DNA of 40,364 nt, taken from IMG/VR virus record IMGVR_UViG_3300022919_000007, positions 1 through 40,364 of that record; one strand, given 5' to 3'. This document shows positions 870 through 40,364 of this stretch, one piece after another. The position numbers and the translations under genes were made by a program. The notes under the pieces are model-generated. The model saw only the letters and a program-made list of their open reading frames with translations, ran no database searches and was not told the origin of the DNA. This DNA is from a virus. Numbering within the stretch: the first letter of the stretch is position 1; every line of letters starts with the position of its first letter.

Positions 870-2255
870 CTATTTTAAGTATTTATTAATTTTAGCCTTC
901 ACGGCATCCATAAGTCTGTTTTGGTTATTGCCTTTCGTCTCCTGCGCTTTAAGCACATCCTCGTCCATAGTACCAACCACTGCCAGCTTGTTCACTACAA
1001 CCGCATTTTTCTGCCCCTGGCGGTCAAGCCTTGCGTTAAATTGCTGCTCAAGCTCCAAACTCCACGTATTGCCAAACCATACGATTATATTACCGCCGGC
1101 CTGCAGGTTAAGGCCGTGCCCTCCTGACGCGGGATGCATCATCATGACTTGTATTTTCCCGGCGTTCCAGTCGTTTATATCCTGGTCCGTCTTTAGTTCC
1201 TGCGGCTTGTACTTCTTTAGCTTCTCGAGCATCCTGTCACGGTCATGCCTGTAGGTCCATGCGATAAGCACCGGGTGCCCGTTGGCCGCTTCGATAAGCT
1301 CCTCCAAAGCTTGCAGCTTTAAATTGTGTACCTCGTGGTAAACTTTATTTTCGTCGTACATAGCGCCATTGGCAAACTGTAATAATTTATTCGATAGGGC
1401 TGCCGCATTAAGGGCAGATATTTCTTTGTCGTCGCCCTCAGCGCTTACCAGGTTCATAACCTGTTCCTTCTCGAAGTCGTCGTATTGCTTCTGCAAGTCG
1501 GGCGGCATATCAATACGCACAATATTATTAATACGCTCGGGTAAATCTAAATAATCTTTTGCTTTCATGCTCATACAAATGTCGCCTATCTTAGCATAGA
1601 TTTGCTGCTCCCCCGACTCTTCAAGTTTATAACTGTACGTTATCGAGCCGTTACGCTTATCCGGCCTGAAGTACGTTTCCCGGTAGGTAGTAATAAACTT
1701 GCCCAGCCTTGCCCCGCGGTCAAGTAAATATATTTGGCTCCACAAGTCTATAAGGCCGTTAGGCGCAGGCGTACCGGTAAGGCCTACCACGCGGCTAAAC
1801 GATGGCTGCACCGCCTTTAATGCTTTAAAGCGTACTGACTGCGGGTTTTTGAAACTGCTAAGCTCGTCAATCACAAGCATATCAAACGGGGTGCGGGTGC
1901 CACCAAACTGGGAACAAAGCCACGCCACGTTATCCCTGCCTACGGTGTACACATCTGCCGGTTGCCGCAGGGCAGCTTTACGCTGCTTCTCGTTGCCCAG
2001 TATCTTAGATATACGCAGGTGCTTCAGGTGTTCCCACTTGCCAATCTCAGCACTCCACACACTTTCAGCTACCCGCTTAGGGGCTATGATAAGCACGGCG
2101 TTTATTTCCAGCTCTTCATAAATTAGTTTGTTGATAGCGGTAAGGGTCGATACGGTTTTGCCTAAGCCCATTTCAAGCAGCAGCGCCCCGTGTGTATTTT
2201 CCATTATGTGGCTTACAGCGGTATGCTGGTAGCCGTGCAGGTTTGACTCGTTCAC
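870..2255 (-). CDS. SNF2/DEAD-like phage helicase
   Basis: 461 residues. It carries a superfamily 2 ATPase core: Walker A MGLGKT at residues 29-34, Walker B/DExx VIDEL at 128-132, motif III GLTGTP at 158-163, and a motif VI of the SNF2 type, ARLDRQGQ, near residue 410. This layout is that of SNF2-like helicases carried in phage replication cassettes beside polymerase, VRR-NUC and VirE genes. It probably remodels or unwinds DNA during replication or recombination. The start is GTG at 2255-2253, forming a GTGA overlap with the stop of the upstream methyltransferase gene. No ATG fits better without losing the N-terminal helicase motifs. Confidence 0.92.
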   Translation of the reverse strand: MNESNLHGYQHTAVSHIMENTHGALLLEMGLGKTVSTLTAINKLIYEELEINAVLIIAPKRVAESVWSAEIGKWEHLKHLRISKILGNEKQRKAALRQPADVYTVGRDNVAWLCSQFGGTRTPFDMLVIDELSSFKNPQSVRFKALKAVQPSFSRVVGLTGTPAPNGLIDLWSQIYLLDRGARLGKFITTYRETYFRPDKRNGSITYSYKLEESGEQQIYAKIGDICMSMKAKDYLDLPERINNIVRIDMPPDLQKQYDDFEKEQVMNLVSAEGDDKEISALNAAALSNKLLQFANGAMYDENKVYHEVHNLKLQALEELIEAANGHPVLIAWTYRHDRDRMLEKLKKYKPQELKTDQDINDWNAGKIQVMMMHPASGGHGLNLQAGGNIIVWFGNTWSLELEQQFNARLDRQGQKNAVVVNKLAVVGTMDEDVLKAQETKGNNQNRLMDAVKAKINKYLK

Positions 2256-3223
2256 GGTATCAGATTTTTAAAAAACTCAACAATAACATCAACTGTCCAG
2301 CCGTTACCTAAGCCTTTAAATCTTTGGCTATCGCTTATGACCGATGTATAATTATCAGGCAGGGTTTGCGCCCGCTCGGCTTCTGTAGGGGTTAGACTTC
2401 TCCATGTGTCTACATCAAAATCGCCTACGTTAGTACGGCTACCGAAAGAAGAGGTTATACTGTGAACCTTACCTGCTATGTGAAAAACTCTGTCCTGCAT
2501 ATACGGCTGCATACCGTTGCAGCGAGTACTTGAGTTTATTTGATTTGTCTTATAAGCTACTACGCTATCTTTACGGACGGTGGTCAAGCTGTTTAATTTT
2601 TGGCTCTTATTAAGTTCTAAAGTCTGTACTGTCTTATCCCCTGCGTAACGGTCGCGTATTGCTGCTCCGTAACCTTCTACCCCGTCTTCGAGTATATCTT
2701 TAATTACTATGCCTTTATCTGCTGGCGCGCTAAAGCCGCGGATATTTGTCCAGTATAAGCGCTTACGTACTTGGGCAGAAACTATCGAACTGCAAACTTC
2801 TATAGGCTCTACCCCTAAAAATGAACTTATAACCGCTTGGTGTTCCTTTTTCATTTTAACATTCTCAAGGAAAAACTTAACGCCGGGATTATACTCCCGT
2901 ATCTCGTTGAGTATTCTCACGTACTCAAAAAACAATGCGCTGCGGGGGTCTTCAAAATTCAACTGCTTACCCGCAAAGCTAAAGCCTTGGCAGGGGCTCC
3001 CGCCGATTAGTAAATCTATATGCGGCAATATTAAATCTAAGCCTGCTATTTTAGTAACGTCTCCGAGTTGTTGCGTTTTAGGGTAGTTATGCTGCGTAAC
3101 TTTTATGGCGTGCTTATCTATCTCGCTTGCGAAGTAATTAGCTACGGGTACACCTGCGCGCTCAAGGGCTACCTGCCCGCAGCTAATGCCGTCGAATAGG
3201 CTAAGTACATTTATTGGTTCCAT
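2252..3223 (-). CDS. DNA (cytosine-5) methyltransferase, orphan
   Basis: 323 residues. The C5-methyltransferase motifs appear in order: motif I SLFDGISCG at residues 8-16, motif IV GGSPCQGFS at 74-82 with catalytic Cys78, motif VI ENV at 120-122, motif VIII QVRKR at 151-155, and the C-terminal GNGWTVDVI. The variable region between VIII and IX is short, so this looks like a compact phage enzyme. It transfers a methyl group from S-adenosylmethionine to cytosine. No partner restriction enzyme is visible, so the likely role is protection of phage DNA from host restriction. The start context is TTTAAACCATGG. The end overlaps the helicase start. Confidence 0.94.
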   Translation of the reverse strand: MEPINVLSLFDGISCGQVALERAGVPVANYFASEIDKHAIKVTQHNYPKTQQLGDVTKIAGLDLILPHIDLLIGGSPCQGFSFAGKQLNFEDPRSALFFEYVRILNEIREYNPGVKFFLENVKMKKEHQAVISSFLGVEPIEVCSSIVSAQVRKRLYWTNIRGFSAPADKGIVIKDILEDGVEGYGAAIRDRYAGDKTVQTLELNKSQKLNSLTTVRKDSVVAYKTNQINSSTRCNGMQPYMQDRVFHIAGKVHSITSSFGSRTNVGDFDVDTWRSLTPTEAERAQTLPDNYTSVISDSQRFKGLGNGWTVDVIVEFFKNLIP

Positions 3224-3751: not shown

Positions 3752-6151
3752 TTATTTTTTAAGTTGATAATATTTTTGTTTGCCGTATAGGCTAAAATTA
3801 CGTGTTGAATTGATAAACTCCCAGCCTTCGATATTTCTGACAATCGTATTCAGTTCCCGGGATTTGTACGGGTCTAAGTCTTCACGTTTTTTACCTAAGC
3901 ACTCACACCATATCTCGGCAGTACAAACGTACTCCCGTGCCTCAGTACCTTTAACAAGCGGGTCGGCTAAATACGCCCTGCGCTCTAACTCGTCTTTACT
4001 ATCCCAGTCGGCAGATACGGGAGTGTTAAGGTACTGCTCAATTATGCCCTTGCGCTCGTCGGTTTCGCTGTGCTTCATCTGCTCCACTGCTGCGATTGCC
4101 TCAGCATCACGGCTAAGGTATAGCGGCTCTTTGGCTTTGTACAGCGTTACGGCCTCAGCCCATACCTGGTTAATATTAGCCTCGTCATTTATGAACTGCC
4201 ACAGTACAGGGTTGTCTACCAACTTCACAGGTTTGGTATCAATCGGCATAAAGCGGCGGTTACCTACCGGGTCTTTAAGAAAGTCGCGGCGGTTTGTGGT
4301 GCCGCCAAATATGCTTTGCCTCGGGTAGGTTTCAGTCGTCCTGCCATACGCTGGCCTAAAAGTATCTTCTTGTTTAGATATAAAGTGCCGTATACCTTCT
4401 ACCTCGGCATTCTTTAGCCCGGCAAGTTCTGCCATTTCAATAATCCATGCCCCTTGCAACTGCTCAAAACTCTCTTTACCCTGCAACGTGCTGAAGCTAT
4501 CACTGAACCATTGGCGGCCTAACGCTTTCAGGAACGAGCTTTTACCCGCCCCCTGTATCTGCGCGCCTACCAATACCAGTACAAGCTCAAACTTAATGCC
4601 GGGCTGCATAACCCGGGCCACGCCGCCTACCAGCCATTTACGCATAGCCTCGCGGGTGTATAGCGTATCGTCTGCACCGAATAAGTTTATCAGTAGCGTA
4701 TCTATACGCTGCACACCATCCCATGTTAGGCCCCTAAGATAGTCTACTACGGGGTGAAAGTGGTTTTTTTCAAATTCCAGGCTTATGCTATCCTCAATCT
4801 TTTGCGCGCCGGTAATGCCGTAAATACTTTCTATGTAGTTGCGGATGCCTGAGTAGTCTACATTGCGCACCGGTTCGGGCTTAGGCACTTTACGCCAGGG
4901 CAGGTTATTAAACACATATCGTTTACTATCAAAGTCGTTTAATCGGAACAGCTTTTTAAGGCGGTGGTCGTTGGCAAATATTAAGTTGAGGTTTGTAGCA
5001 CTTGACAGGTAATTTTTACGGCCGTCAATTTCTAAATCCTGCATCCAGGTAATGTCCTCAGCTTCGGGGTCTGCCTCGCTTAAGTCTTCGGGCATATCCT
5101 CATTGAAGTCGTAACGGGCATCGCTCAGGGTATCGGAGGCAATTAGCTTACGTACTGCTTTGTCCTCACGGGCGAAGTCGTCCATAGCCTTGTAACTCTT
5201 TGTAGCTTTGCCGGCAGTAAGCCCTTCGTCTAAATGTCCAAAACGGTGCACACGAACCAGGTCGAAAGCGTTTGACAGCTTGCCGCTGCACGGATCGGTA
5301 CCGTGATGCGAGAACGCAAATTTATCGTCGTAGACAATAAGCCCGGCAGCCGTTGTACTTTTAGAATAGGTGTAGCGGTTCTCAATATCAGTAGGCAGGT
5401 ACTCGTCTGTAAGGAACTTGGTAATTGCCTCAGTCATAGTGTACGCCCTACAGAATGCCCCTACGATACCTTTTTTCGTTTCGGGGTCTTCCTGCTTATC
5501 AGCATGCGCCCGTACCTGGTCGAACTTGGTTTGCGAGGTAGGCCATAGACTGCTGTCTTTCCAGTCGGCATAGGTGGCAAGCACCTCGTCAACGTCTACC
5601 GCTGGTCCCGATTGCGTCCTAAAATAGTACTCCATATCTTTAGGAGTAGAAGGCCAAAACATTAAGCGGTTAGGCTCGAAGGTAGTGTTATCGAAAAGGT
5701 CGATACCTAAATCCCCTGCGACTTTACGGCCTGCAGCCACGTATTCGTCGGGCGTGCATTCGCGGTTAAGCGGTATGATAAGGCGGTAACGCGGCGAAGC
5801 CTCACAATGCTTATGCGTGGCATGCAGCACGGCGGCGCAGTCCATCATTAAAGTGAAGTCGTCCCAAAAGTCTTTGTGTGCGAAGTCTATATCCAGCGTA
5901 AGCAGCTGGCGGTGTACAACGGTATCGTGCTTACGCTTGCCCCCTCTTAGGTAGCCCCCCACAAAACCGCCTACATCTTTAATACGCAGCTGCTCCTCAC
6001 GGGTTGCGCCTAAGAACTCCTTAAGCGTTTCGTTCGTCTTTACCGTTTCGCTTAATCGCTGCACAAGCTCCGGCCACGTAACTTTTTTATTTTTCCAGCT
6101 TGGCGAGTTGTACCGCAAGCCGGTTGCTATGTCTATTTTGATGGTGTTCAT
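3752..6151 (-). CDS. Primase-helicase: primase-like N-terminus with VirE-family ATPase
   Basis: 799 residues in two parts. Residues 1-190 look like a primase-polymerase (AEP-type/BT4734-like) domain: LLTLDIDF with Asp87 and Asp89, then ASPRYRLIIPL at 118-128 and EPNRLMFWP at 159-167. Residues 430-700 match the virulence-associated E (VirE) helicase family, with Walker A VGAQIQGAGKSS at 528-539, WIIEMAEL at 569-576, and downstream GTTNRRDFLKDPVGNRRF. The protein probably primes and unwinds the phage DNA, working with the polymerase encoded upstream. The start ATG shares one base with the previous stop (TAATG). The length is normal for such fusions. Confidence 0.9.
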   Translation of the reverse strand: MNTIKIDIATGLRYNSPSWKNKKVTWPELVQRLSETVKTNETLKEFLGATREEQLRIKDVGGFVGGYLRGGKRKHDTVVHRQLLTLDIDFAHKDFWDDFTLMMDCAAVLHATHKHCEASPRYRLIIPLNRECTPDEYVAAGRKVAGDLGIDLFDNTTFEPNRLMFWPSTPKDMEYYFRTQSGPAVDVDEVLATYADWKDSSLWPTSQTKFDQVRAHADKQEDPETKKGIVGAFCRAYTMTEAITKFLTDEYLPTDIENRYTYSKSTTAAGLIVYDDKFAFSHHGTDPCSGKLSNAFDLVRVHRFGHLDEGLTAGKATKSYKAMDDFAREDKAVRKLIASDTLSDARYDFNEDMPEDLSEADPEAEDITWMQDLEIDGRKNYLSSATNLNLIFANDHRLKKLFRLNDFDSKRYVFNNLPWRKVPKPEPVRNVDYSGIRNYIESIYGITGAQKIEDSISLEFEKNHFHPVVDYLRGLTWDGVQRIDTLLINLFGADDTLYTREAMRKWLVGGVARVMQPGIKFELVLVLVGAQIQGAGKSSFLKALGRQWFSDSFSTLQGKESFEQLQGAWIIEMAELAGLKNAEVEGIRHFISKQEDTFRPAYGRTTETYPRQSIFGGTTNRRDFLKDPVGNRRFMPIDTKPVKLVDNPVLWQFINDEANINQVWAEAVTLYKAKEPLYLSRDAEAIAAVEQMKHSETDERKGIIEQYLNTPVSADWDSKDELERRAYLADPLVKGTEAREYVCTAEIWCECLGKKREDLDPYKSRELNTIVRNIEGWEFINSTRNFSLYGKQKYYQLKK

Positions 6152-11111: not shown

Positions 11112-11510
11112 TTATTTTGAATTTATAATCTTTTCAATCCCCTGCAGGTAAACGCTAAGTGCCATAGTGCCGCTGTGTATAACAGTTTCGCTGATTAGCT
11201 CGGAATTGTGGTACACTCGGGTTGTCCAGTCGGTACGGTCAAGTTCTGCCGTGTACTCGCCATTAGTGAAACGGGTTAGCTTGCCATTGCTTTCAGCCTT
11301 GCGCCAGGTTTCGCCGAATATAGCAGCAACGGGCATACCTGACAATTCAGACAGTTTAGTTATCTGCGTTGAATTTAGGTCGCCGTCGCCCTTCATGACT
11401 CTGTCAAGGGCCATAACCGGGTATTGGTTAGACGGGAACAGGTGCGTTGCAATAGCGGGCTTATCTAAGCCGCTGGCAGTAATTGCCTCTTGTATTTTTA
11501 GGTTGTTCAT
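11112..11510 (-). CDS. HTH-like DNA-binding protein, candidate regulator
   Basis: 132 residues from the ATG at 11510 (MNNLKIQEAITASGLDKP). An earlier in-frame ATG at 11546 would overlap the upstream gene. Residues 1-65 look like an XRE/Cro-type helix-turn-helix: IQEAITASGLDKPAIATHLF, an ALDRVMKGDGDLNSTQITKL stretch, then LSELSGMPVAAIFG. Residues 75-125 form a separate beta-rich part with paired Trp/Tyr (TDWTTRVYHNSE). It is the second gene of the replication operon, close to control region R1, so it is the best visible candidate to bind the repeated motif there. That link is inference. Confidence 0.7.
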   Translation of the reverse strand: MNNLKIQEAITASGLDKPAIATHLFPSNQYPVMALDRVMKGDGDLNSTQITKLSELSGMPVAAIFGETWRKAESNGKLTRFTNGEYTAELDRTDWTTRVYHNSELISETVIHSGTMALSVYLQGIEKIINSK

Positions 11511-11709: not shown

Positions 11710-11731
11710 GGTTTCTTTGTTTTTACTTCAG

Positions 11732-11762
11732 CAAATATAAACCTATTTTTATAAAAACCAAA
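11732..11762 (-). promoter_or_regulatory. Strong promoter of the replication operon (control region R1)
   Basis: On the minus strand TTTG (11759-11762), exactly 19 bp, then TATATTTG (11732-11739). This is a full match to the Bacteroidota consensus. The repeat array of R1 begins 24 bp upstream of the TTTG element. Confidence 0.85.
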
Positions 11763-11785
11763 AATATTTTTTACTTTATTTTCAG

Positions 11786-12130
11786 CGTAAACCATGCTTT
11801 TTTATGGTTTACGTGTCAACTATTTGCAAATCAATCTTTTAAGCCCGAAAACGGCAGAAACGTAAACCATGTAAACGTTAATCTCTTATAGGCGTATATA
11901 CGCATTTACGGGTGCTTATTACGGGTTATGTATTGTATATCCCCTATTATTATATAATATTAATCTTTTAGTATAATAATGGTTTACATGGTTTATTTTG
12001 ATGTGAAGCCCTGTAAAATATAGGGTTTCGACGTAAACCATAAATGAGATATTACGTTTACATGGTTTACGTATAGGCACAAAAAAAGAGACACCGTAGT
12101 ATCTCTTTGGGTAAAAGACTCGCAAACCAT
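11786..12130. repeat. Control region R1: array of ATGGTTTAC motifs in both orientations
   Basis: The 11710-12162 gap has no credible gene. It holds six perfect copies of ATGGTTTAC or its reverse complement (starting at 11787, 11804, 11862, 11979, 12033, 12062) and two near copies (11988, 12122). The first pair forms a perfect 10-bp palindrome, CGTAAACCAT/ATGGTTTACG at 11786-11795 and 11804-11813. An AT-rich core lies at 11945-11973. Sequence 11886-12071 is homologous to 37379-37563 in region R2. Shared pieces are TTTACGGGTGC, TATTATTATATAA, TAATCTTTTAGTA, a 23-mer at 11979-12001 and GTGAAGCCC. Likely an operator array, a replication origin, or both. Confidence 0.9.
12081..12108 (-). terminator. 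Intrinsic terminator ending the late operon
   Basis: On the minus strand a 10-bp stem (AAAGAGATAC with GTGTCTCTTT, one G-T pair) closes a TACG loop and runs straight into TTTT. It lies about 55 bp past the spanin stop and within region R1, so it would insulate late transcription from the replication operon. Confidence 0.75.
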
Positions 12131-12148
12131 GCAAAGAAAGCCTTTGTG

Positions 12149-12156
12149 CAAATATA
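12149..12156 (-). promoter_or_regulatory. Isolated -7 element, weak promoter candidate
   Basis: TATATTTG on the minus strand, between the spanin stop and the terminator at 12081-12108. No TTTG is found at the expected distance upstream. If active it would yield only a short RNA ending at that terminator. Confidence 0.25.
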
Positions 12157-12162
12157 GTATTT

Positions 12163-12633
12163 TTATAATAGCTTCGACGTTAAACCCTGTAAAACTTTAC
12201 TGTTTTGATTTATGGTGCGGTACAGCAGAAATATAAAAAAGCACAGCACTATCGTAATAACGCCCCCGGCAACGTAGATAAATGTAGGGTCGAACTTCGC
12301 CGACTCGGTTTTATCTTTTGTACTATTGGCCTGCTGCATATCTTTAGAGTACTTCAATATCTCGCTTATAGCAGACGAAAAGCAATCCACCTGGCTAACG
12401 TTACCGCTGCTGTCGTAAACAGTCCTTAGCGTTGTTCCCTGCTTGTTTACGGCGTATATAGTAGTATCTTTCACGTGCAGCACGGTTTTATATGTTACCG
12501 TGTCGCCACGGCGTTGCGTGATTTGCTCGAGTTGCTCCTGCGTGTCGGTGCTGCTATTGGTTTTAGCTACCTGCCTTTGCACGTCGCAGGAGGTAAGGCA
12601 AAGCAGTAAAATAATTAATATTTTTATTTGCAT
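12163..12633 (-). CDS. Single-gene spanin (u-spanin) candidate
   Basis: 156 residues. The N-terminus is a lipoprotein signal, MQIKILIILLLCLTSC, with the lipidated Cys at 16. A hydrophobic helix spans about 118-138 (TFIYVAGGVITIVLCFFIFLLY) and a short polar tail follows. A lipid anchor at the front and an inner-membrane helix at the back, joined by about 100 periplasmic residues, is the architecture known from the T1 u-spanin, which fuses inner and outer membranes in the last step of lysis. It is the gene immediately after the endolysin. No sequence match to known spanins is claimed; the call rests on topology and position. Confidence 0.75.
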   Translation of the reverse strand: MQIKILIILLLCLTSCDVQRQVAKTNSSTDTQEQLEQITQRRGDTVTYKTVLHVKDTTIYAVNKQGTTLRTVYDSSGNVSQVDCFSSAISEILKYSKDMQQANSTKDKTESAKFDPTFIYVAGGVITIVLCFFIFLLYRTINQNSKVLQGLTSKLL

Positions 12634-12657
12634 ATATGATAAAGTTTTGTATGTTTG
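12627..12657 (+). promoter_or_regulatory. Plus-strand promoter opposite the late operon
   Basis: TTTG (12627-12630), exactly 19 bp, then TATGTTTG (12650-12657) on the plus strand. Same spacing and same -7 sequence as the late promoter at 37216-37246. It is the only plus-strand promoter I found and it points at the terminator at 12722-12752. Confidence 0.6.
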
Positions 12658-13480: not shown

Positions 13481-13823
13481 TTTCTAAATTTTTAGCTTTC
13501 TTATTTATCCATTGCGCACCATATTTTATTATGATGTGTACTATCAATTCAGCAAAAAGGGTTACTATAAAAATGTAATAGAATATCTCAATCTGTATTT
13601 TTTTATCTTGCCAATAAAGCCACCCCATTGTAACAAGCCCGAAAATATACATCAGTCGAATGATAATATCTTTTCTGTTTATTGAGCCTTTCACAAAGTC
13701 GGGCAATGTCTTAAGGCATAACCCAGCAAGGAATGCTAACACATTGGCTATATATGGCGGTAAGTCTCCGTTCATTAATACCAAAAGTACAACCATTATA
13801 ATAAACGCATCTGCTTTTAGCAT
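13473..13823 (-). CDS. Small membrane protein (holin candidate)
   Basis: 116 residues with four possible helices: about 6-16, 23-37 (PYIANVLAFLAGLCL), 55-70 (LMYIFGLVTMGWLYW) and 79-99 (IFYYIFIVTLFAELIVHIII). The charged C-terminus is INKKAKNLEND. The layout of three or four helices plus a charged tail resembles class I or DUF-type holins, but I recognise no family. It overlaps both neighbours by a few bases, so the whole membrane-gene run is one translational unit. Confidence 0.65.
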   Translation of the reverse strand: MLKADAFIIMVVLLVLMNGDLPPYIANVLAFLAGLCLKTLPDFVKGSINRKDIIIRLMYIFGLVTMGWLYWQDKKIQIEIFYYIFIVTLFAELIVHIIIKYGAQWINKKAKNLEND

Positions 13824-14236
13824 CTTATTAAGATTTTACCTACTGTTATTACTACAAATGTAAGGTAAATAATTATAATGTAAGCAGCGTAGTAAAAATC
13901 ACATTCCATATCCATACTCACATAAAACAGGTTTAAAGCCCATATAACAAACAAACAGCACCAGCATAACCAAGATAGCCACTTATAGTATTTGGCGTTA
14001 ATTATCATCATTAGTAGAGCGAATAGGGAGGTGTCAGCAAAATGCCTGAGTATGTAGTCATATTTACCAAAAGATTCTTCTGACATGTTTATCCATCCCA
14101 ATTTATATCCGTACACAAAACATAATAGTATTGTCATAAAAGAGAATGCAATAACAGGCAGATAAGCGTTGAATACCGATAACGAAAAAAGCAGGCGTTT
14201 AGCCTGCTCTAATCTATATTGAATTGAATGCCTCAT
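13817..14236 (-). CDS. Multi-pass membrane protein of unknown function
   Basis: 139 residues. Basic N-terminus (MRHSIQYRLEQAKRL), then hydrophobic stretches at about 26-45, 72-83 (LFALLMMIINAK), 86-108 (WLSWLCWCCLFVIWALNLFYV) and 115-135 (YYAAYIIIIYLTFVVITVG). No family recognised. It overlaps the next gene and begins one base inside the stop of the preceding one. It belongs to the lysis-region run of small membrane proteins. Confidence 0.6.
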   Translation of the reverse strand: MRHSIQYRLEQAKRLLFSLSVFNAYLPVIAFSFMTILLCFVYGYKLGWINMSEESFGKYDYILRHFADTSLFALLMMIINAKYYKWLSWLCWCCLFVIWALNLFYVSMDMECDFYYAAYIIIIYLTFVVITVGKILIRC

Positions 14237-16033: not shown

Positions 16034-18076
16034 TTACTTGGTTACGTTTACTGTAAAACTACCTGATGCAGGATTTTGACCCGTGCCTGTATAATTATTG
16101 AATCTTACCGTTACTGTATTGGTAGCAGATACCCAAGCCGTGAAACAACTATTTGCAACAATGGCGGCATTGGGAGTTCCAAGTATAACAGGTTTACCCT
16201 CTATTGCCCCCGTAACAGTTATAGTCAAATCACTTGAAGACTGCCCAGCTGTTGATGGAAAATCTAACGTTGCTGTAGTGGTGTATGGAACAGCCTGCCC
16301 CACGGTAGCTGCATCTGTAGCTGCTACGCCGTTAGGTATGGTTACAGGGTTATTAAACGTCCACACCCTGGCATCCGTAACCGTTGCGCTGGTCGTACCG
16401 GCGCTGTTCTGAAACATCATAGATGTACCGTTACCTAATGGCCTGTAATTAGCAGCACGTATAGCGCCTGAGAATACGGTATTAGCGGCATTTGTTACGC
16501 TACCTATAATTATGGTATTATTAGCATTGAATAGAAGGCTACCCGACAACGTACCTCCAGCTAAGGGAAGATAGCTTTGAAACATTGTGTAAGCACCACC
16601 CGACGTAATTAGGTTGCTGCTGGATACTGTGGGTGTTGTGTCTACAGGTGTGTATGTGGTTGAAGTCCCTGATTTTGTTACAACGCCGCTACCTGACTGT
16701 ATAGGTTCTTTACCTGCTAACCCTGTTGTGTAAGTGTTTTGGTCTACACCTCCGTTTGTATTACTACCTGTACCCGTGTATAATCGGGAAATACCCGTTA
16801 CGGATGGCGTTGCCTGTACGTTATCCCCTGTATTTGTTCCTGAAAGCGCGTTTAGCTTAACCTTATCGGTTGCTATTAACACACCGGAATTAGTGGTTGT
16901 CGCTCCTGATATTACCGCCCCGGTGCCGTTACTGTTATTTATAGTGTAGTCTGTTGCGCTGGGCGTACTTGATAGGTTTGTTGCGCCGCCAGCATGAGCC
17001 GCTACATAATCCTGAAGCCTACCCTCTTGTATGTAAATATTACGGTTTGTGCCGTCGTTATTCATAGAAAAATCCTCATCTCCTACTATCCCTTTAAAGG
17101 TTGGATTGTCAGGGGCACTAACCAGCACATCCCCGTTTTCACTAAATTGCATGCCGCCAGTAGAAAACCCGTTACCTACATAAAAACCGCCATCGTTAGA
17201 TATTAAGCCACTTGCGTCTGCCATTTCTAAAAGTCCCGTAACAGGGTTGCCCGTTGTTGTTCCACTTAGAGGGATGCCTGCATGGTCATCTACGTATTGG
17301 CGTTGAGCGTATATTAATTTATTTTCAGGCTCAACTTCTGAATAATCATAGGTAGATATAAGCCCTTCTGTTTTCTGAAACTGCACCCCTGAGTCAATAA
17401 CATTATCTACACTATGCGAAAAGTTTAATCCGCCTTCAGTGAAATTAAATGAAAATTTATTATCAGTATCATAACTAATAAAAAGATTATTATCTAACTC
17501 AGTAAGCTCTAATGGACCAGTAATAGGCGTTGTAGTGCCTTCTAACGGCACATAATCACCCCCGATTTCAATATCGATATTACCAGCTACGTCAAAAGGA
17601 AGCCCGTTAATTGACCTGCCTATATTTTTGGTGTTAAATTTGAATTCGTCGGCACTTGAAACTATATTTAGATTGTCCGCTATATTAAATTCAGCATACA
17701 CGGTAGACAGCCCGCTTTCGAGCCTTAGTTTATGTTCACTCGTAAGTATAATATCCTTGTTGGCGGTGTTACCCGCAGTTAAAACACTTAGTAGATTTGG
17801 TACGAGAATATCTGAAGCGTACGCCAGTTTTTTATAATTAGTACCGTTATGGTGATACAACCTACCGTTATAGGTAAGAATACGGCCCAGGTTAGCAATG
17901 TTTGGAAACAGCGTCGCGGTATCTATCACGGGGGTTTTTAAAAGCTTTTCAGCCCACGTGCCGCCCGGGTAACGGTATACAGTGCTGGCCGTGCCCTGCG
18001 GGGTTACCGTAGCATTCTGTGCCAGTCCTAAAAAGGGTAAAAGAAATAATAAGTAAAACAGTTTTCTCATGATCAT
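16034..18076 (-). CDS. Long tail-fibre-like protein with a Sec signal peptide
   Basis: 680 residues. The N-terminus MIMRKLFYLLFLLPFLGLAQ (ATG at 18076, or 18070) is a signal peptide. The rest is Gly/Ser/Thr/Asn-rich with fibre features: LEMADASGLISNDGG, NNSNGTGAVISGATT, DKVKLNALSGTNTGDN, PLAGGTLSGSLLF, and ATDAATVGQAVPYTT near 600. These phrases are typical of Bacteroidota phage tail fibres that bind the host surface. The gene follows the adhesin-like 430-residue gene by 7 bp. A secreted fibre-like protein is odd for a phage; possible roles are a host-surface decoy or a fibre matured outside the cytoplasm. Confidence 0.75.
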   Translation of the reverse strand: MIMRKLFYLLFLLPFLGLAQNATVTPQGTASTVYRYPGGTWAEKLLKTPVIDTATLFPNIANLGRILTYNGRLYHHNGTNYKKLAYASDILVPNLLSVLTAGNTANKDIILTSEHKLRLESGLSTVYAEFNIADNLNIVSSADEFKFNTKNIGRSINGLPFDVAGNIDIEIGGDYVPLEGTTTPITGPLELTELDNNLFISYDTDNKFSFNFTEGGLNFSHSVDNVIDSGVQFQKTEGLISTYDYSEVEPENKLIYAQRQYVDDHAGIPLSGTTTGNPVTGLLEMADASGLISNDGGFYVGNGFSTGGMQFSENGDVLVSAPDNPTFKGIVGDEDFSMNNDGTNRNIYIQEGRLQDYVAAHAGGATNLSSTPSATDYTINNSNGTGAVISGATTTNSGVLIATDKVKLNALSGTNTGDNVQATPSVTGISRLYTGTGSNTNGGVDQNTYTTGLAGKEPIQSGSGVVTKSGTSTTYTPVDTTPTVSSSNLITSGGAYTMFQSYLPLAGGTLSGSLLFNANNTIIIGSVTNAANTVFSGAIRAANYRPLGNGTSMMFQNSAGTTSATVTDARVWTFNNPVTIPNGVAATDAATVGQAVPYTTTATLDFPSTAGQSSSDLTITVTGAIEGKPVILGTPNAAIVANSCFTAWVSATNTVTVRFNNYTGTGQNPASGSFTVNVTK

Positions 18077-26153: not shown

Positions 26154-26184
26154 CAAATATAAAACTATTTTTATAATAACCAAA
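26154..26184 (-). promoter_or_regulatory. Promoter of the accessory cassette
   Basis: On the minus strand TTTG (26181-26184), 19 bp, TATATTTG (26154-26161): full consensus. It starts just after the tape measure stop (26193), inside the late operon. The 27 bases 26138-26164, covering the -7 element and leader, are identical to 35364-35390. Confidence 0.82.
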
Positions 26185-35418: not shown

Positions 35419-36762
35419 TTATCTATTTCCCACCCGCACTTTAGCTGTATAGTTTTTACGCAGTGCAAACCAGTAGCGCATCATAATACTATCCCACTCG
35501 TCAGGGCTGCGGCCTATATGCTCTTTAACTTTATCCTTCGGTATTACGCCCTGCTTGCCGTCTTTGTCAATATCTTTCAGCTTTACCTGTTCCATTTCTT
35601 CAGATGTGATACGCTGTACCTCGCTATCTTCGCAGACTTCGGCAGCCAGCTTATCCGCAATCAACTCAGCCATTTTAATACTGCATTGGCTTTTAAGGTT
35701 GTCGTAATTGGGTTTAACGTAAACAGTACCTTCCAGCATTTCAAGCGGGCTACTGTTATTTACAAAACCTTTACATCGCAAACCATCTACCACACCGCCG
35801 CCTACGCCGTCCTCGTCTGCGATAATGTTACCCAGCGGTACGCCGTTAGCGGTTGCCAGCTTACGGGCCGCTGCGATTGTCTCGGGAATAGTTGACACTG
35901 CCAAAGCAAAGCGGTGTATCACTACCCAACCATGCCACACACGTATCACGGTTTTGTCTTTGCCTTTACGGGCCACGTCGATAGTCATGTACTTTTGGCC
36001 TTCGGGCTTTACATGACACTCTGACAGGCTTTGTACAAAATAATCGCTTATACTGTCATGGTCGATAAGTGTTGCCGGGTCGTCGTCATACTCCCAGTTA
36101 CCGAAATAAAGACGCTCACGGCTGTTTTTGTCAAGTCTGAGCAACGATTGCAGGTAAGAGGGGTGCAAGTGTGGGTTATCGGTAGGTAGGCTCTGTATAA
36201 AGCGTCTGTGCGTGTCAAGTGATTTGCCCCTTGCGGGTTTGTAGAACTCGGCATAAGTCCAATTTTTTGAAGGGTTGCAGGTTCCCAACATTTTAGGTGT
36301 AAGGCCATACTCGGTTAGCTTGTAACGTATACGGCTTTTCACTATCTGCCATGCGCCATACGTTACCTGGTTGCATTCGTCAATGAATGCACCGGTAATT
36401 TCTAACGAGCCTAAACTATCAAAGTTTGGGTCGCTGGGGTACAGCATCAAATCTTTAAGAAGTATTTGGCTGCCGTTGTTCCAGTTGATAACGTTGTCCT
36501 GTCCGTTGTATTTGAATTGCGGCCCCAGCTTTAAAAGCGTTGCCAATTCAAAAAAGGTATTGAGGGTAGTTTCTTTAAGGGATTTTAATTTGCTCCGGCC
36601 CATTAGCCACCTGGTGCCTGGGTACTTTTGGCACTGCTCTATTAACCAAAGGCATCCCAATGCGCTTTTACCTCCGCCCGCCGCGCCGCCGTATAAAATC
36701 TCTTCTGTAGTTTTATCCTTGAGGTAGTAAACAGCATTATTCTGTTTTGGCAGCAGCTCCAT
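35419..36762 (-). CDS. terL: Terminase large subunit
   Basis: 447 residues. Walker A GGAAGGGKS at 25-33, Walker B ITGAFIDE at 122-129, coupling motif CNPS at 162-165. The nuclease part has MTIDVARKGKDKT with Asp262, IIADEDGVGG with an acidic cluster at 316-318, and a late Asp in SPDEWDSIMMRYW. This is the motor that cuts and packages DNA into the prohead. Size is normal. Its start lies 26 bases inside the small-subunit gene. Circular permutation of the assembly fits a headful (pac) mode, but that is inference. Confidence 0.95.
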   Translation of the reverse strand: MELLPKQNNAVYYLKDKTTEEILYGGAAGGGKSALGCLWLIEQCQKYPGTRWLMGRSKLKSLKETTLNTFFELATLLKLGPQFKYNGQDNVINWNNGSQILLKDLMLYPSDPNFDSLGSLEITGAFIDECNQVTYGAWQIVKSRIRYKLTEYGLTPKMLGTCNPSKNWTYAEFYKPARGKSLDTHRRFIQSLPTDNPHLHPSYLQSLLRLDKNSRERLYFGNWEYDDDPATLIDHDSISDYFVQSLSECHVKPEGQKYMTIDVARKGKDKTVIRVWHGWVVIHRFALAVSTIPETIAAARKLATANGVPLGNIIADEDGVGGGVVDGLRCKGFVNNSSPLEMLEGTVYVKPNYDNLKSQCSIKMAELIADKLAAEVCEDSEVQRITSEEMEQVKLKDIDKDGKQGVIPKDKVKEHIGRSPDEWDSIMMRYWFALRKNYTAKVRVGNR

Positions 36763-37198
36763 TGCCCAGGTTTATCACGTTGATACTTTCGCCGTTTGTC
36801 GTTACATCGGTTTTGTCAGTAAGCCCTAACTTGCGGGCAATGATGCTCGGGTTGTAAGCGCCGACCGTAGCCCCTTCAAACTGGTGCATCTCAATAACCG
36901 CTCTTATGCGTGAGCAGACTTCCACAAAATCAGTATGCTTTTCATAGTTCAGAAACGTTTGGTGCGCTATATCTGCAAACAAGCAAAACGTTTCAATACT
37001 CATAGGCGTAGATGTTGGTATCTTTACAAGCGCTCCGGCCATGTCCCCCGACTTAATCGCCTCGTGCTTTACCCAAGATCTGCCAGCCATCCATTTGAAA
37101 TACTTTTCGGCTTCATCCCAAAAAGCCTCCGGGGTATACTTGTGGTCTCTCCCGTGCTTGTTTCTGAATTGCCAGTAATTGTTTCCTAATGCGGCCAT
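36737..37198 (-). CDS. terS: Terminase small subunit
   Basis: 153 residues, DNA-packaging gp3-like. PEAFWDEAEKYFKWMAGRSW, MSIETFCLFADIAHQTFLNY with a helix-turn-helix look, and YNPSIIARKLGLTDKTDVTT near the end are all typical of Bacteroidota phage small terminases. It binds the packaging site and recruits the large subunit. First gene of the late block, 18 bp downstream of the promoter in control region R2. Start context TTTAAACCATGG. Confidence 0.9.
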   Translation of the reverse strand: MAALGNNYWQFRNKHGRDHKYTPEAFWDEAEKYFKWMAGRSWVKHEAIKSGDMAGALVKIPTSTPMSIETFCLFADIAHQTFLNYEKHTDFVEVCSRIRAVIEMHQFEGATVGAYNPSIIARKLGLTDKTDVTTNGESINVINLGNGAAAKTE

Positions 37199-37215
37199 GG
37201 TTTAAATCTTTGCCA

Positions 37216-37246
37216 CAAACATACGAATAAATTTCAAACTACCAAA
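37216..37246 (-). promoter_or_regulatory. Late promoter in control region R2
   Basis: On the minus strand TTTG (37243-37246), exactly 19 bp, TATGTTTG (37216-37223). It precedes TerS. The nearest ATGGTTTAC motif (37279-37287) lies 32 bp upstream, as in R1, so the promoter-to-array layout is conserved. Confidence 0.85.
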
Positions 37247-37278
37247 AATATTTTCATTGCTTCAAAACGAAACAAAGC

Positions 37279-37686
37279 GTAAACCATAAAAAAAGAGTAC
37301 GTTTCTCGTTTAACCCGCTGCAAATCAAAACGTTAAGGCCGTTTTTTGACAAATTGTAAACCATAAACCATAAAACCCTTATAAGGCGTATAGGCGTTTT
37401 ACGCGTTTTACGGGTGCATTTATGTGTATATATTCCCTTATTATTATATAAATAATCTTTTAGTAATAGTATGGTTTACATGGTTTATTTTGACGTGAAG
37501 CCCAGTGTTTACCGGGGTTTCCCGGTAAACCATAGTACGTTTACATGGTTTACATGGTTTACGTTTTTTGGCAAAACACTGTTTTCAAAAGTTTGCGGTT
37601 TTTATCGTTTACATGGTTTATCGGCATGGAAAGCCCAGTGTTTACAGGGGTTACAGCGTAAACCATATACGTTTACGTACGTTTAC
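37279..37686. repeat. Control region R2: array of ATGGTTTAC motifs in both orientations
   Basis: The 37199-37672 gap holds no gene. It has seven perfect copies of ATGGTTTAC or its complement (starting 37279, 37356, 37471, 37525, 37545, 37554, 37658) and three near copies (37363, 37480, 37613). Part 37379-37563 is homologous to R1. A module ATGGTTTAC...GCCCAGTGTTTAC...GTAAACCAT...CGTTTAC occurs twice here (37471-37563 and 37607-37686) and once in R1. A perfect 10-bp hairpin, GTTTACCGGG/CCCGGTAAAC with a 4-base loop, lies at 37507-37530. Its R1 counterpart (12009-12025) keeps a hairpin with different sequence. The upstream gene's stop (37673) lies inside the array. Confidence 0.9.
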
Positions 37687-38218
37687 CGAAAATTCTTTGG
37701 TACACCACTGTTAAAGTTCCTTTTTTTTCGGGCAGGCTGTTTTTAGCTATGATTTGCTGCCCTGAAAAGTGGACGGCATACCCCGCTAATACTATTCTTG
37801 TAAGTTTATACTGACTGGAAAACTTTGTCGCCCCCTCAATTTTAACACTTGGCTCTGCTTTTCTGCTTAAAAAAAGTACATCGTTGAGGGGTTTTACTAC
37901 CTGCACGGGGCTATGGGTTGGAAAGTTTCGGGTAGTTTCTATGTAAGCCGCCCGCAGTTTCACCGACCGTCTCTGTATATCAATTGACACAATTTCATAA
38001 TAAATACCCGTCATTTTATCCTGCGCCCACACGTATTTTTTACCCCCGTCCTGCCTTCCGGCAGGTATGTAAAACGGTTCGCCGCGCTCTGCTTTTATAT
38101 CCGTAAGTGATAAAAAAGGCACTGTAGTATCAGTGCCTTTTAAATTAATCTCTGCCATTTTCGATGCGAAGTTGAAGCGGATAACATCAACTTCGCCGCC
38201 TTTATAATTTGCTTTCAT
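37673..38218 (-). CDS. Last gene of the second early operon, unknown function
   Basis: 181 residues from the ATG at 38218, which overlaps the previous stop (ATGA). A TTG at 38227 is possible. Opening MKANYKGGEVDVIRFNFASK, then VPFLSLTDIKAERGEPFYIP, YIETTRNFPTHSPVQVVKPL and a basic end (GTLTVVYQRIFGKRT). Beta-rich, no family recognised. Its stop lies within the repeat array of region R2, so its 3' end and the array share sequence. Confidence 0.65.
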   Translation of the reverse strand: MKANYKGGEVDVIRFNFASKMAEINLKGTDTTVPFLSLTDIKAERGEPFYIPAGRQDGGKKYVWAQDKMTGIYYEIVSIDIQRRSVKLRAAYIETTRNFPTHSPVQVVKPLNDVLFLSRKAEPSVKIEGATKFSSQYKLTRIVLAGYAVHFSGQQIIAKNSLPEKKGTLTVVYQRIFGKRT

Positions 38219-38334
38219 ACCCTGCAATTATTACACTTATCATTGTCGTCTAAGTCAAGTTCTATATCGCAGGGGCTTCCACATGTCGGGCATCGATCTA
38301 CCGGCTCAAAAAAACTACTTGGTGAACTATTCAT
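38215..38334 (-). CDS. Tiny zinc-ribbon protein (39 aa)
   Basis: Frame MNSSPSSFFEPVDRCPTCGS then PCDIELDLDDNDKCNNCRV. CPTC and CNNC pairs separated by an acidic loop form a zinc ribbon. The ATG follows the previous stop by 3 bases and its TGA overlaps the next ATG (ATGA). It is therefore almost certainly translated, though too short for most gene finders. Like the 64-residue zinc-ribbon of the same operon, the role is unknown; nucleic-acid or protein binding is likely. Confidence 0.78.
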   Translation of the reverse strand: MNSSPSSFFEPVDRCPTCGSPCDIELDLDDNDKCNNCRV

Positions 38335-40204: not shown

Positions 40205-40364
40205 CTATCTTCTACCGCAGTTCATGCACCTTATGGCGTTGTTATCAGTAACATCAACCCGGTTCCCAGTAACTACATCGCTATCGGCTGAAACCTCTAT
40301 GCTTTCTTTTACAGTAGTGTTTATACATTGTCTACATAAAACTGTCTCGGCGGCAGCTGTTCCT
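40205..40364 (-). CDS. Small zinc-ribbon protein, C-terminal part (continues at base 162)
   Basis: This is the 3' part of the 64-residue zinc-ribbon gene whose ATG is at 162. Sequence 40238-40364 duplicates 1-127. The unique part encodes the last ten residues, AIRCMNCGRR, with the second CxxC pair, and ends in TAG at 40205-40207. A GC-rich hairpin follows at 40177-40194, before the next gene of the same operon (39810-40160). Seen directly: open frame through the join and paired CxxC motifs. The function is unknown. Confidence 0.8.
   Translation of the reverse strand, partial: GTAAAETVLCRQCINTTVKESIEVSADSDVVTGNRVDVTDNNAIRCMNCGRR
40238..40364. repeat. Terminal 127-bp overlap, right copy
   Basis: Exact copy of bases 1-127. 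Removing one copy closes the genome to 40,237 bp and joins the two halves of the zinc-ribbon gene at 40205-40364 and 1-162. Confidence 0.93.

Follow-up and report, generated by a model that had tools for sequence, protein, structure and literature searches.

A conserved pair of homologous control regions heads the replication and late operons of many Bacteroides/Flavobacterium-group phages

Introduction

The Bacillus phage SPP1 replicates from two origins, oriL and oriR, that lie ~13 kb apart and share a similar organization of direct repeats and an AT-rich unwinding element, and a single origin-binding protein, gp38, binds both (PMC6316719). In addition, oriR has been proposed to stall replication forks, triggering the shift to concatemers (PMC6316719). 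The Vibrio phage ICP1 uses an early theta origin and a late, packaging-proximal origin (PMC7145576).

The window analysed here, the whole stretch of 40,364 bases, contains two homologous control regions, R1 and R2, that can be set against these systems. As in SPP1, two similar elements with repeats and AT-rich DNA occupy one ~40-kb genome, here 14.7 kb apart along the replication operon compared with ~13 kb, and one lies near the replication genes and the other in late territory. Unlike oriL, which is inside gene 38, R1 and R2 are intergenic promoter regions; their cores have a repeat doublet at either edge, the two in inverted orientation; and the replisome is of a VapE/PolA type rather than the DnaB-type gp40 plus host replisome of SPP1. 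No gp38-type or other known phage replication-initiation protein was found among the early-region proteins scanned against Pfam and PHROGs. ICP1 sets a precedent in that a second origin, used late, lies close to the packaging end, but its origins were inferred from read depth and not from a homologous repeat pair (PMC7145576). We do not file R1 and R2 as SPP1- or ICP1-type members, because a gp38-like protein was not found and origin activity is putative. An earlier, sequence-only reading knew of no described phage element with such a layout; oriL and oriR of SPP1 are in fact a functional precedent (PMC6316719).

Two further classes bear comparison. Plasmid and lambdoid iteron origins (Rep or O iterons, DUE and IHF) share with R1 and R2 short direct repeats by an AT-rich core, an IHF-type site and a replicon-private repeat, but differ from them in that R1 and R2 are two copies per genome with a short, 9-bp unit; no Rep_3, RepA_N or O homologue was found in the scanned proteins. 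Cro/C1 phage operators and the operators of restriction-modification (R-M) C proteins likewise have a small HTH protein encoded beside the candidate sites, upstream of promoters, whereas R1 and R2 have many more sites, an AT-rich core and a homologous second copy before the late operon. We found no description of an R1/R2-type pair in the open-access literature searched. To our knowledge, replication start sites of Bacteroidota phages, including gut Bacteroides and Parabacteroides phages, are poorly characterized.

Two homologous control regions in one genome

An exact 127-bp terminal repeat (1-127 and 40238-40364) indicates that the assembly is circular and complete, with a length of 40,237 bp. 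The - strand carries the large genes of the window; R1 therefore stands at the head of the replication operon and R2 at that of terS and terL, in agreement with the initial proposal of a paired element ahead of both operons. Below R1 are encoded an HTH protein, a DUF2800 exonuclease, an Enc34-type SSB, PolA, a VapE helicase-primase, a small endonuclease, a methylase and an SNF2 helicase; below R2, terS comes first, followed by terL and late genes. A C-5 cytosine methyltransferase at 2252-3223 (- strand) is part of the replication operon. A megablast search of phage records with the first 25 kb of the window, including R1, gave no match. The genes, regions and promoters discussed below are as follows.

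3752-6151, - strand: VapE-type helicase-primase, rival candidate initiator (PF05272, 1e-75; phrog_256)
11112-11510, - strand: 132-aa Cro/C1-like DNA-binding protein, candidate binder (AF2 model, HTH-domain matches)
11710-12162, - strand: R1, control region ahead of the replication operon (homologous to R2, no genes in the gap)
11732-11762, - strand: Bacteroidota-type promoter of the replication operon (exact TTTG-N19-TAnnTTTG)
36737-37198, - strand: terminase small subunit (terS), first gene past R2 (PF16677, phrog_606)
37199-37672, - strand: R2, control region ahead of the late operon, whose first gene is terS (gap lying between 37673-38227 and terS at 36737-37198)
37216-37246, - strand: late operon promoter (exact TTTG-N19-TAnnTTTG)

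Both gaps noted in the sequence-only reading are present, with extents that change to those listed once short spurious ORFs are ignored. Its main observations on the homology were borne out: R1 (11886-12071) aligns with R2 at 75% identity over ~185 bp (E 1e-27), and the identical 23-mer at 11979 and 37471 and both shared 13-mers were recovered. A longer alignment covers 218 bp at 74% (E 1e-29). The 13 perfect copies reported for the 9-mer ATGGTTTAC/GTAAACCAT were also recounted, with six in R1 (11787, 11804, 11862, 11979, 12033 and 12062), seven in R2 (37279, 37356, 37471, 37525, 37545, 37554 and 37658) and none elsewhere in the window, whereas the reported five near copies became six with one mismatch (11988, 12122, 37363, 37480, 37604 and 37613). 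Dinucleotide shuffles of the two gaps gave means of only 0.013 and 0.021 copies; arrays of short repeats, as expected of iteron origins, are thus present far above chance.

The two regions share a series of parts, given here in order of position (no strand is assigned where none is stated).

11787-11812: R1 promoter-proximal inverted pair, GTAAACCAT-N8-ATGGTTTAC
11829-11841, - strand: R1 IHF-consensus site YAANNNNTTGATW; the window has just one other
11862-11876, - strand: R1 inverted doublet GTAAACCATGTAAAC, at the opposite core edge from the direct doublet
11877-11978: R1 core, 102 bp, 73% AT, no 9-mer (alignment, stability ranking)
11979-11996, + strand: R1 direct doublet ATGGTTTAC-ATGGTTTAT, 9-bp period, at one core edge, kept in 18 of 18 aligned control regions
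12033-12070: R1 outer motif pair, GTAAACCAT at 12033-12041 and GTTTACATGGTTTAC at 12056-12070
37279-37287, - strand: R2 promoter-proximal GTAAACCAT
37323-37335, - strand: R2 IHF-consensus site, second of only two in the window
37356-37371, - strand: R2 inverted doublet GTAAACCATAAACCAT
37372-37470: R2 core, 99 bp, ~71% AT, with AAACGCGTAAAACGCC and GCCTTATAAGGG in operon orientation
37471-37488, + strand: R2 direct doublet ATGGTTTAC-ATGGTTTAT
37525-37562: R2 outer array, GTAAACCAT and then GTTTACATGGTTTACATGGTTTAC
37604-37667, + strand: R2 partial extra copy of the array unit (blastn, 74% to R1)

Read in operon orientation, the R1 core has a TTAGTATAATAAT edge followed by ATGCGTATATACGC and CTATAAGAG-type elements. 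The window's only two IHF-consensus sites occupy matching places, one in each region. The partial extra array unit at 37604-37667 makes R2 longer than R1.

We scanned the whole window for exact TTTG-N18-20-TAnnTTTG matches. The nearest 9-mer lies 24 bp from the promoter in R1 and 32 bp in R2, the spacing originally reported. Three more exact matches have no array (188-217 and 26154-26184 on the - strand, and 12627-12657 on the + strand). The last of these opposes all large genes and may be an antisense promoter, close to where the late operon ends.

The paired element recurs with a changing repeat word

R1 and R2 are a real, conserved and paired control element. The paired layout recurs in Croceibacter phage P2559Y, Elizabethkingia phage TCUEAP1, Bacteroides and Parabacteroides phages and many metagenomic phages, and is thus found in many Bacteroides/Flavobacterium-group phages, written in differing repeat words. 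Common to these phages is a mostly AT-rich core of roughly 90-100 bp (82-102 bp among the aligned regions described next) that lies between a repeat doublet and an inverted doublet, together with an IHF-consensus site. An alignment of 18 control regions from nine phages runs from an outer motif pair through a direct doublet (9-bp period), the core and the inverted doublet to the promoter, with doublet, AT-rich core and inverted doublet present in all 18. Many of the aligned regions also contain a TTAA-N4-TTGATTTGCA-like element between the inverted doublet and the promoter.

The repeat word changes from phage to phage, whereas R1 and R2 within one phage use a common word. Words found across phages were GTAAACCAT, GTAAACAAT, GAAACAAT, TCACACAAT, GGAACAAT, ATAAACAAAG, GTCTCAAAT, TGTAAAAGAT and TATCTATCC. 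The cultured phage P2559Y has an equal layout written with GTAAACAAT, and TCUEAP1 has an equal layout with another word; a homologue of the window phage's TerL was not found in P2559Y. A near relative, G001, is 97% identical in R1 and has both copies. Its circular contig (L110-L112) is cut inside R2 and has a 63-bp terminal repeat, probably an assembly break. Six more phages, G028-G033, were reached through the 11112-11510 protein and a motif scan, and each has one region before the HTH gene and a homologous second copy directly before the terS operon.

To assess how general the pairing is, we considered a wider sample of 46 genomes or records, not all independent (the window phage, G001 and G028 are close relatives), with pair counts covering genomes in which terL was located. 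Of the genomes with a homologue of the 11112-11510 HTH protein, 19 of 23 had homologous gaps ahead of the replication genes and ahead of terL; of those without one, 4 of 8 did. The automated test missed two pairs that are visible on inspection, in BF486P2 (gap too far from terL) and in G029 (terL not found), and it gave no pair in G043, G047 and G062. Cultured pair carriers without the HTH homologue include Bacteroides phages SJC13 and BKO1-1 and Parabacteroides phage PM116P6; the two gaps of PM116P6 are homologous (84% over 293 bp), with no enriched word in them. An initial split of 11/11 against 0/10 had suggested that the pair is confined to phages with the HTH homologue, an idea overturned by the wider sample.

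In two tests, no such pair was seen in ten relatives that had been reached by way of the SSB and are mostly more distant (G009-G014, G021 and G023-G025). One of these, G009, has the same replisome, lambdoid-looking control genes and a single element region before terS, and no homologue of the 11112-11510 protein was found in it. That single copy lies at 13819-14215 of its contig L152, which is temperate-looking and has Cro/CI-like genes at 16566 and 17055. The sequence-only reading had held that relatives with one copy and random motif changes would speak against it; the relatives mostly have two copies that change in concert, and G009 is the single-copy case. In G038 the late operon is flipped and both elements retain their absolute orientation, which indicates that element orientation does not depend on promoter direction.

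A candidate binding protein

The 11112-11510 product, which the sequence-only reading considered the best candidate binder, is the first conserved gene past R1, with homologues in 27 of the 46 genomes or records. Its AF2 model (pLDDT 83.7) shows a five-helix HTH at the N terminus and a sheet with a helix in the C-terminal part. The HTH domain resembles the R-M controller proteins C.AhdI and C.Csp231I at about 2 Å, with weak individual E-values; the best rows of the fold search were unrelated enzymes, and we used only the consistent HTH-domain rows (C proteins and BldD). Family members have weak PHROG matches to 'transcriptional regulator', and a search for the protein in genome contigs returned no relative. 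An XRE-fold protein encoded nearby, as expected for Cro/C1 operators, is thus present, with weak individual scores.

Fold, gene position and conservation make this protein a reasonable candidate, whereas the assignment itself is unproven because some pair-carrying phages have no detectable homologue. Motif distance between phages followed protein distance about equally well for the HTH DNA-binding half (rho 0.71), VapE (0.70) and PolA (0.71), and so does not single out the binder; the C-terminal half of the HTH protein gave 0.54. The 11112-11510 protein is a good candidate, and probably the one that binds the R1 and R2 repeats.

Replication origins or operators

The iteron-like array with an AT-rich core, as suggested from the sequence, is supported as anatomy, and by analogy with SPP1 oriL and oriR our preferred reading, at about even odds, is that R1 and R2 are two iteron-type origins inside promoter regions. 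The cores contain no 9-mers, yet are conserved between R1 and R2 within one genome (z 5-18 against shuffles), and the part in common comprises arrays and core but not the promoter stretch. Core and promoter lie between 71 and 257 bp apart, depending on the phage, and this distance differs between R1 and R2 within one phage. Together with the retained orientation in G038, the invariant doublet-core-inverted doublet order in all 18 regions (with another word in TCUEAP1) and the three window promoters that have no array, these features argue for an origin-type element. So does the IHF consensus, for which the R segments of 23 genomes have 29 sites compared with 4.2 expected, tenfold the rate of other gaps; as in iteron origins, an IHF/HU-type site is present, here as a consensus match. 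The R1 and R2 cores fall at the 0.07 and 0.25 percentile of stability among 80-bp windows of the genome, and cores are among the least stable stretches in each genome. This too is expected of an iteron origin, but other promoters are equally unstable and the G038 core includes a GC-rich part. SPP1 and ICP1 provide the precedent for two origins with the late one in late or packaging territory.

Other observations point away from origins. GC skew, which had been suggested as an origin test, showed no sign change and is weakly informative; of 20 genomes, 7 had the skew minimum within 2.5 kb of R1 and none had it that close to R2, a pattern that lends weak support and is confounded because R1 and R2 are also operon borders, which could equally produce it. 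DnaA boxes, which are common but not universal in iteron replication origins, were absent from R1 and R2 (7 in the window compared with 4.5 expected). G009 has a single region and no protein homologue, some pair carriers also lack the protein, and motif distance does not pin the binder.

The candidate binder resembles a transcriptional regulator, and the arrays, directly upstream of both operon promoters, reach to 24-32 bp from the -33 box. R1 and R2 could therefore be operator arrays at which the Cro/C1-like protein represses and/or activates both promoters, autoregulating the replication operon and timing the late one, with the AT-rich core a mere flexible or UP-element-like spacer. The XRE-like fold, the place of its gene at the head of the replication operon and palindromic motif pairs such as GTAAACAATCATTGTTTAC in relatives fit such a role. 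Conservation of a core without motif copies does not, nor do elements that stay unturned beside the flipped late operon of G038. An operator array of the Cro/C1 kind would also be expected to keep a fixed promoter geometry, whereas core-to-promoter spacing varies and the last 9-mers of R1 and R2 (24 and 32 bp) stand in different helical phase to their promoters. We regard operator arrays, the main rival reading, as possible but rather unlikely.

An origin pair might instead be recognized by the VapE helicase-primase itself or by some other protein of the replisome, in which case the Cro/C1-like protein would be a bystander or a modulator. VapE is the replisome helicase, its divergence tracks the motif as that of the HTH protein does, and phages without the HTH homologue still carry paired or single arrays. 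However, two of the three cultured pair phages without the HTH family, BKO1-1 and SJC13, encode a small protein of another type, HTH_17, close to R1, and the motif fits the HTH DNA-binding half better than the C-terminal half. We consider this reading improbable. Packaging (pac/cos) or recombination sites, suggested by the position of R2 immediately upstream of terS, are very improbable and were rejected as a main function: a full second copy ~14.7 kb away precedes the replication genes, and the motif is kept where the terminase is unrelated, as in P2559Y.

Returning to paired origins, we infer from the layout how binding, melting and initiation, order of use and an effect on transcription might proceed. 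A phage-specific protein, most likely the 11112-11510 product made from the operon below R1, would bind the 9-mer doublets flanking the core, helped by an IHF/HU-type bending protein at the conserved consensus site; the core would then open, and the VapE helicase-primase and PolA would be loaded. R1 would be used first, and R2, adjoining terS, would act either as a late origin or as a site where forks stall, tying packaging to the switch to concatemer-making replication, a role already suggested for SPP1 oriR. By binding close to the promoters, this protein could also modulate both operons; the origin and operator functions may coexist. More tentatively, and with somewhat less than even confidence, we propose that a large group of Bacteroidota phages has an undescribed paired-origin system, in which two homologous inverted-iteron origins head the replication and packaging/late operons, a phage-specific repeat code is matched in both copies even after a late module swap, and early replication is linked to late expression and to packaging through one small HTH protein. 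If late modules are swapped while R1 and R2 stay matched, this would imply that a trans-acting factor holds the two regions together.

As a recognizable element, the pair marks candidate origin or switch positions in the cultured phages P2559Y, TCUEAP1, BF486P2, PM116P6, BKO1-1 and SJC13, and the matched repeat and protein variants across phages form a natural set for specificity work. Many relatives also share ACGCGTATA-like and CCTTATAnGG-like words, which recur between the AT-rich stretch and the inverted doublet.
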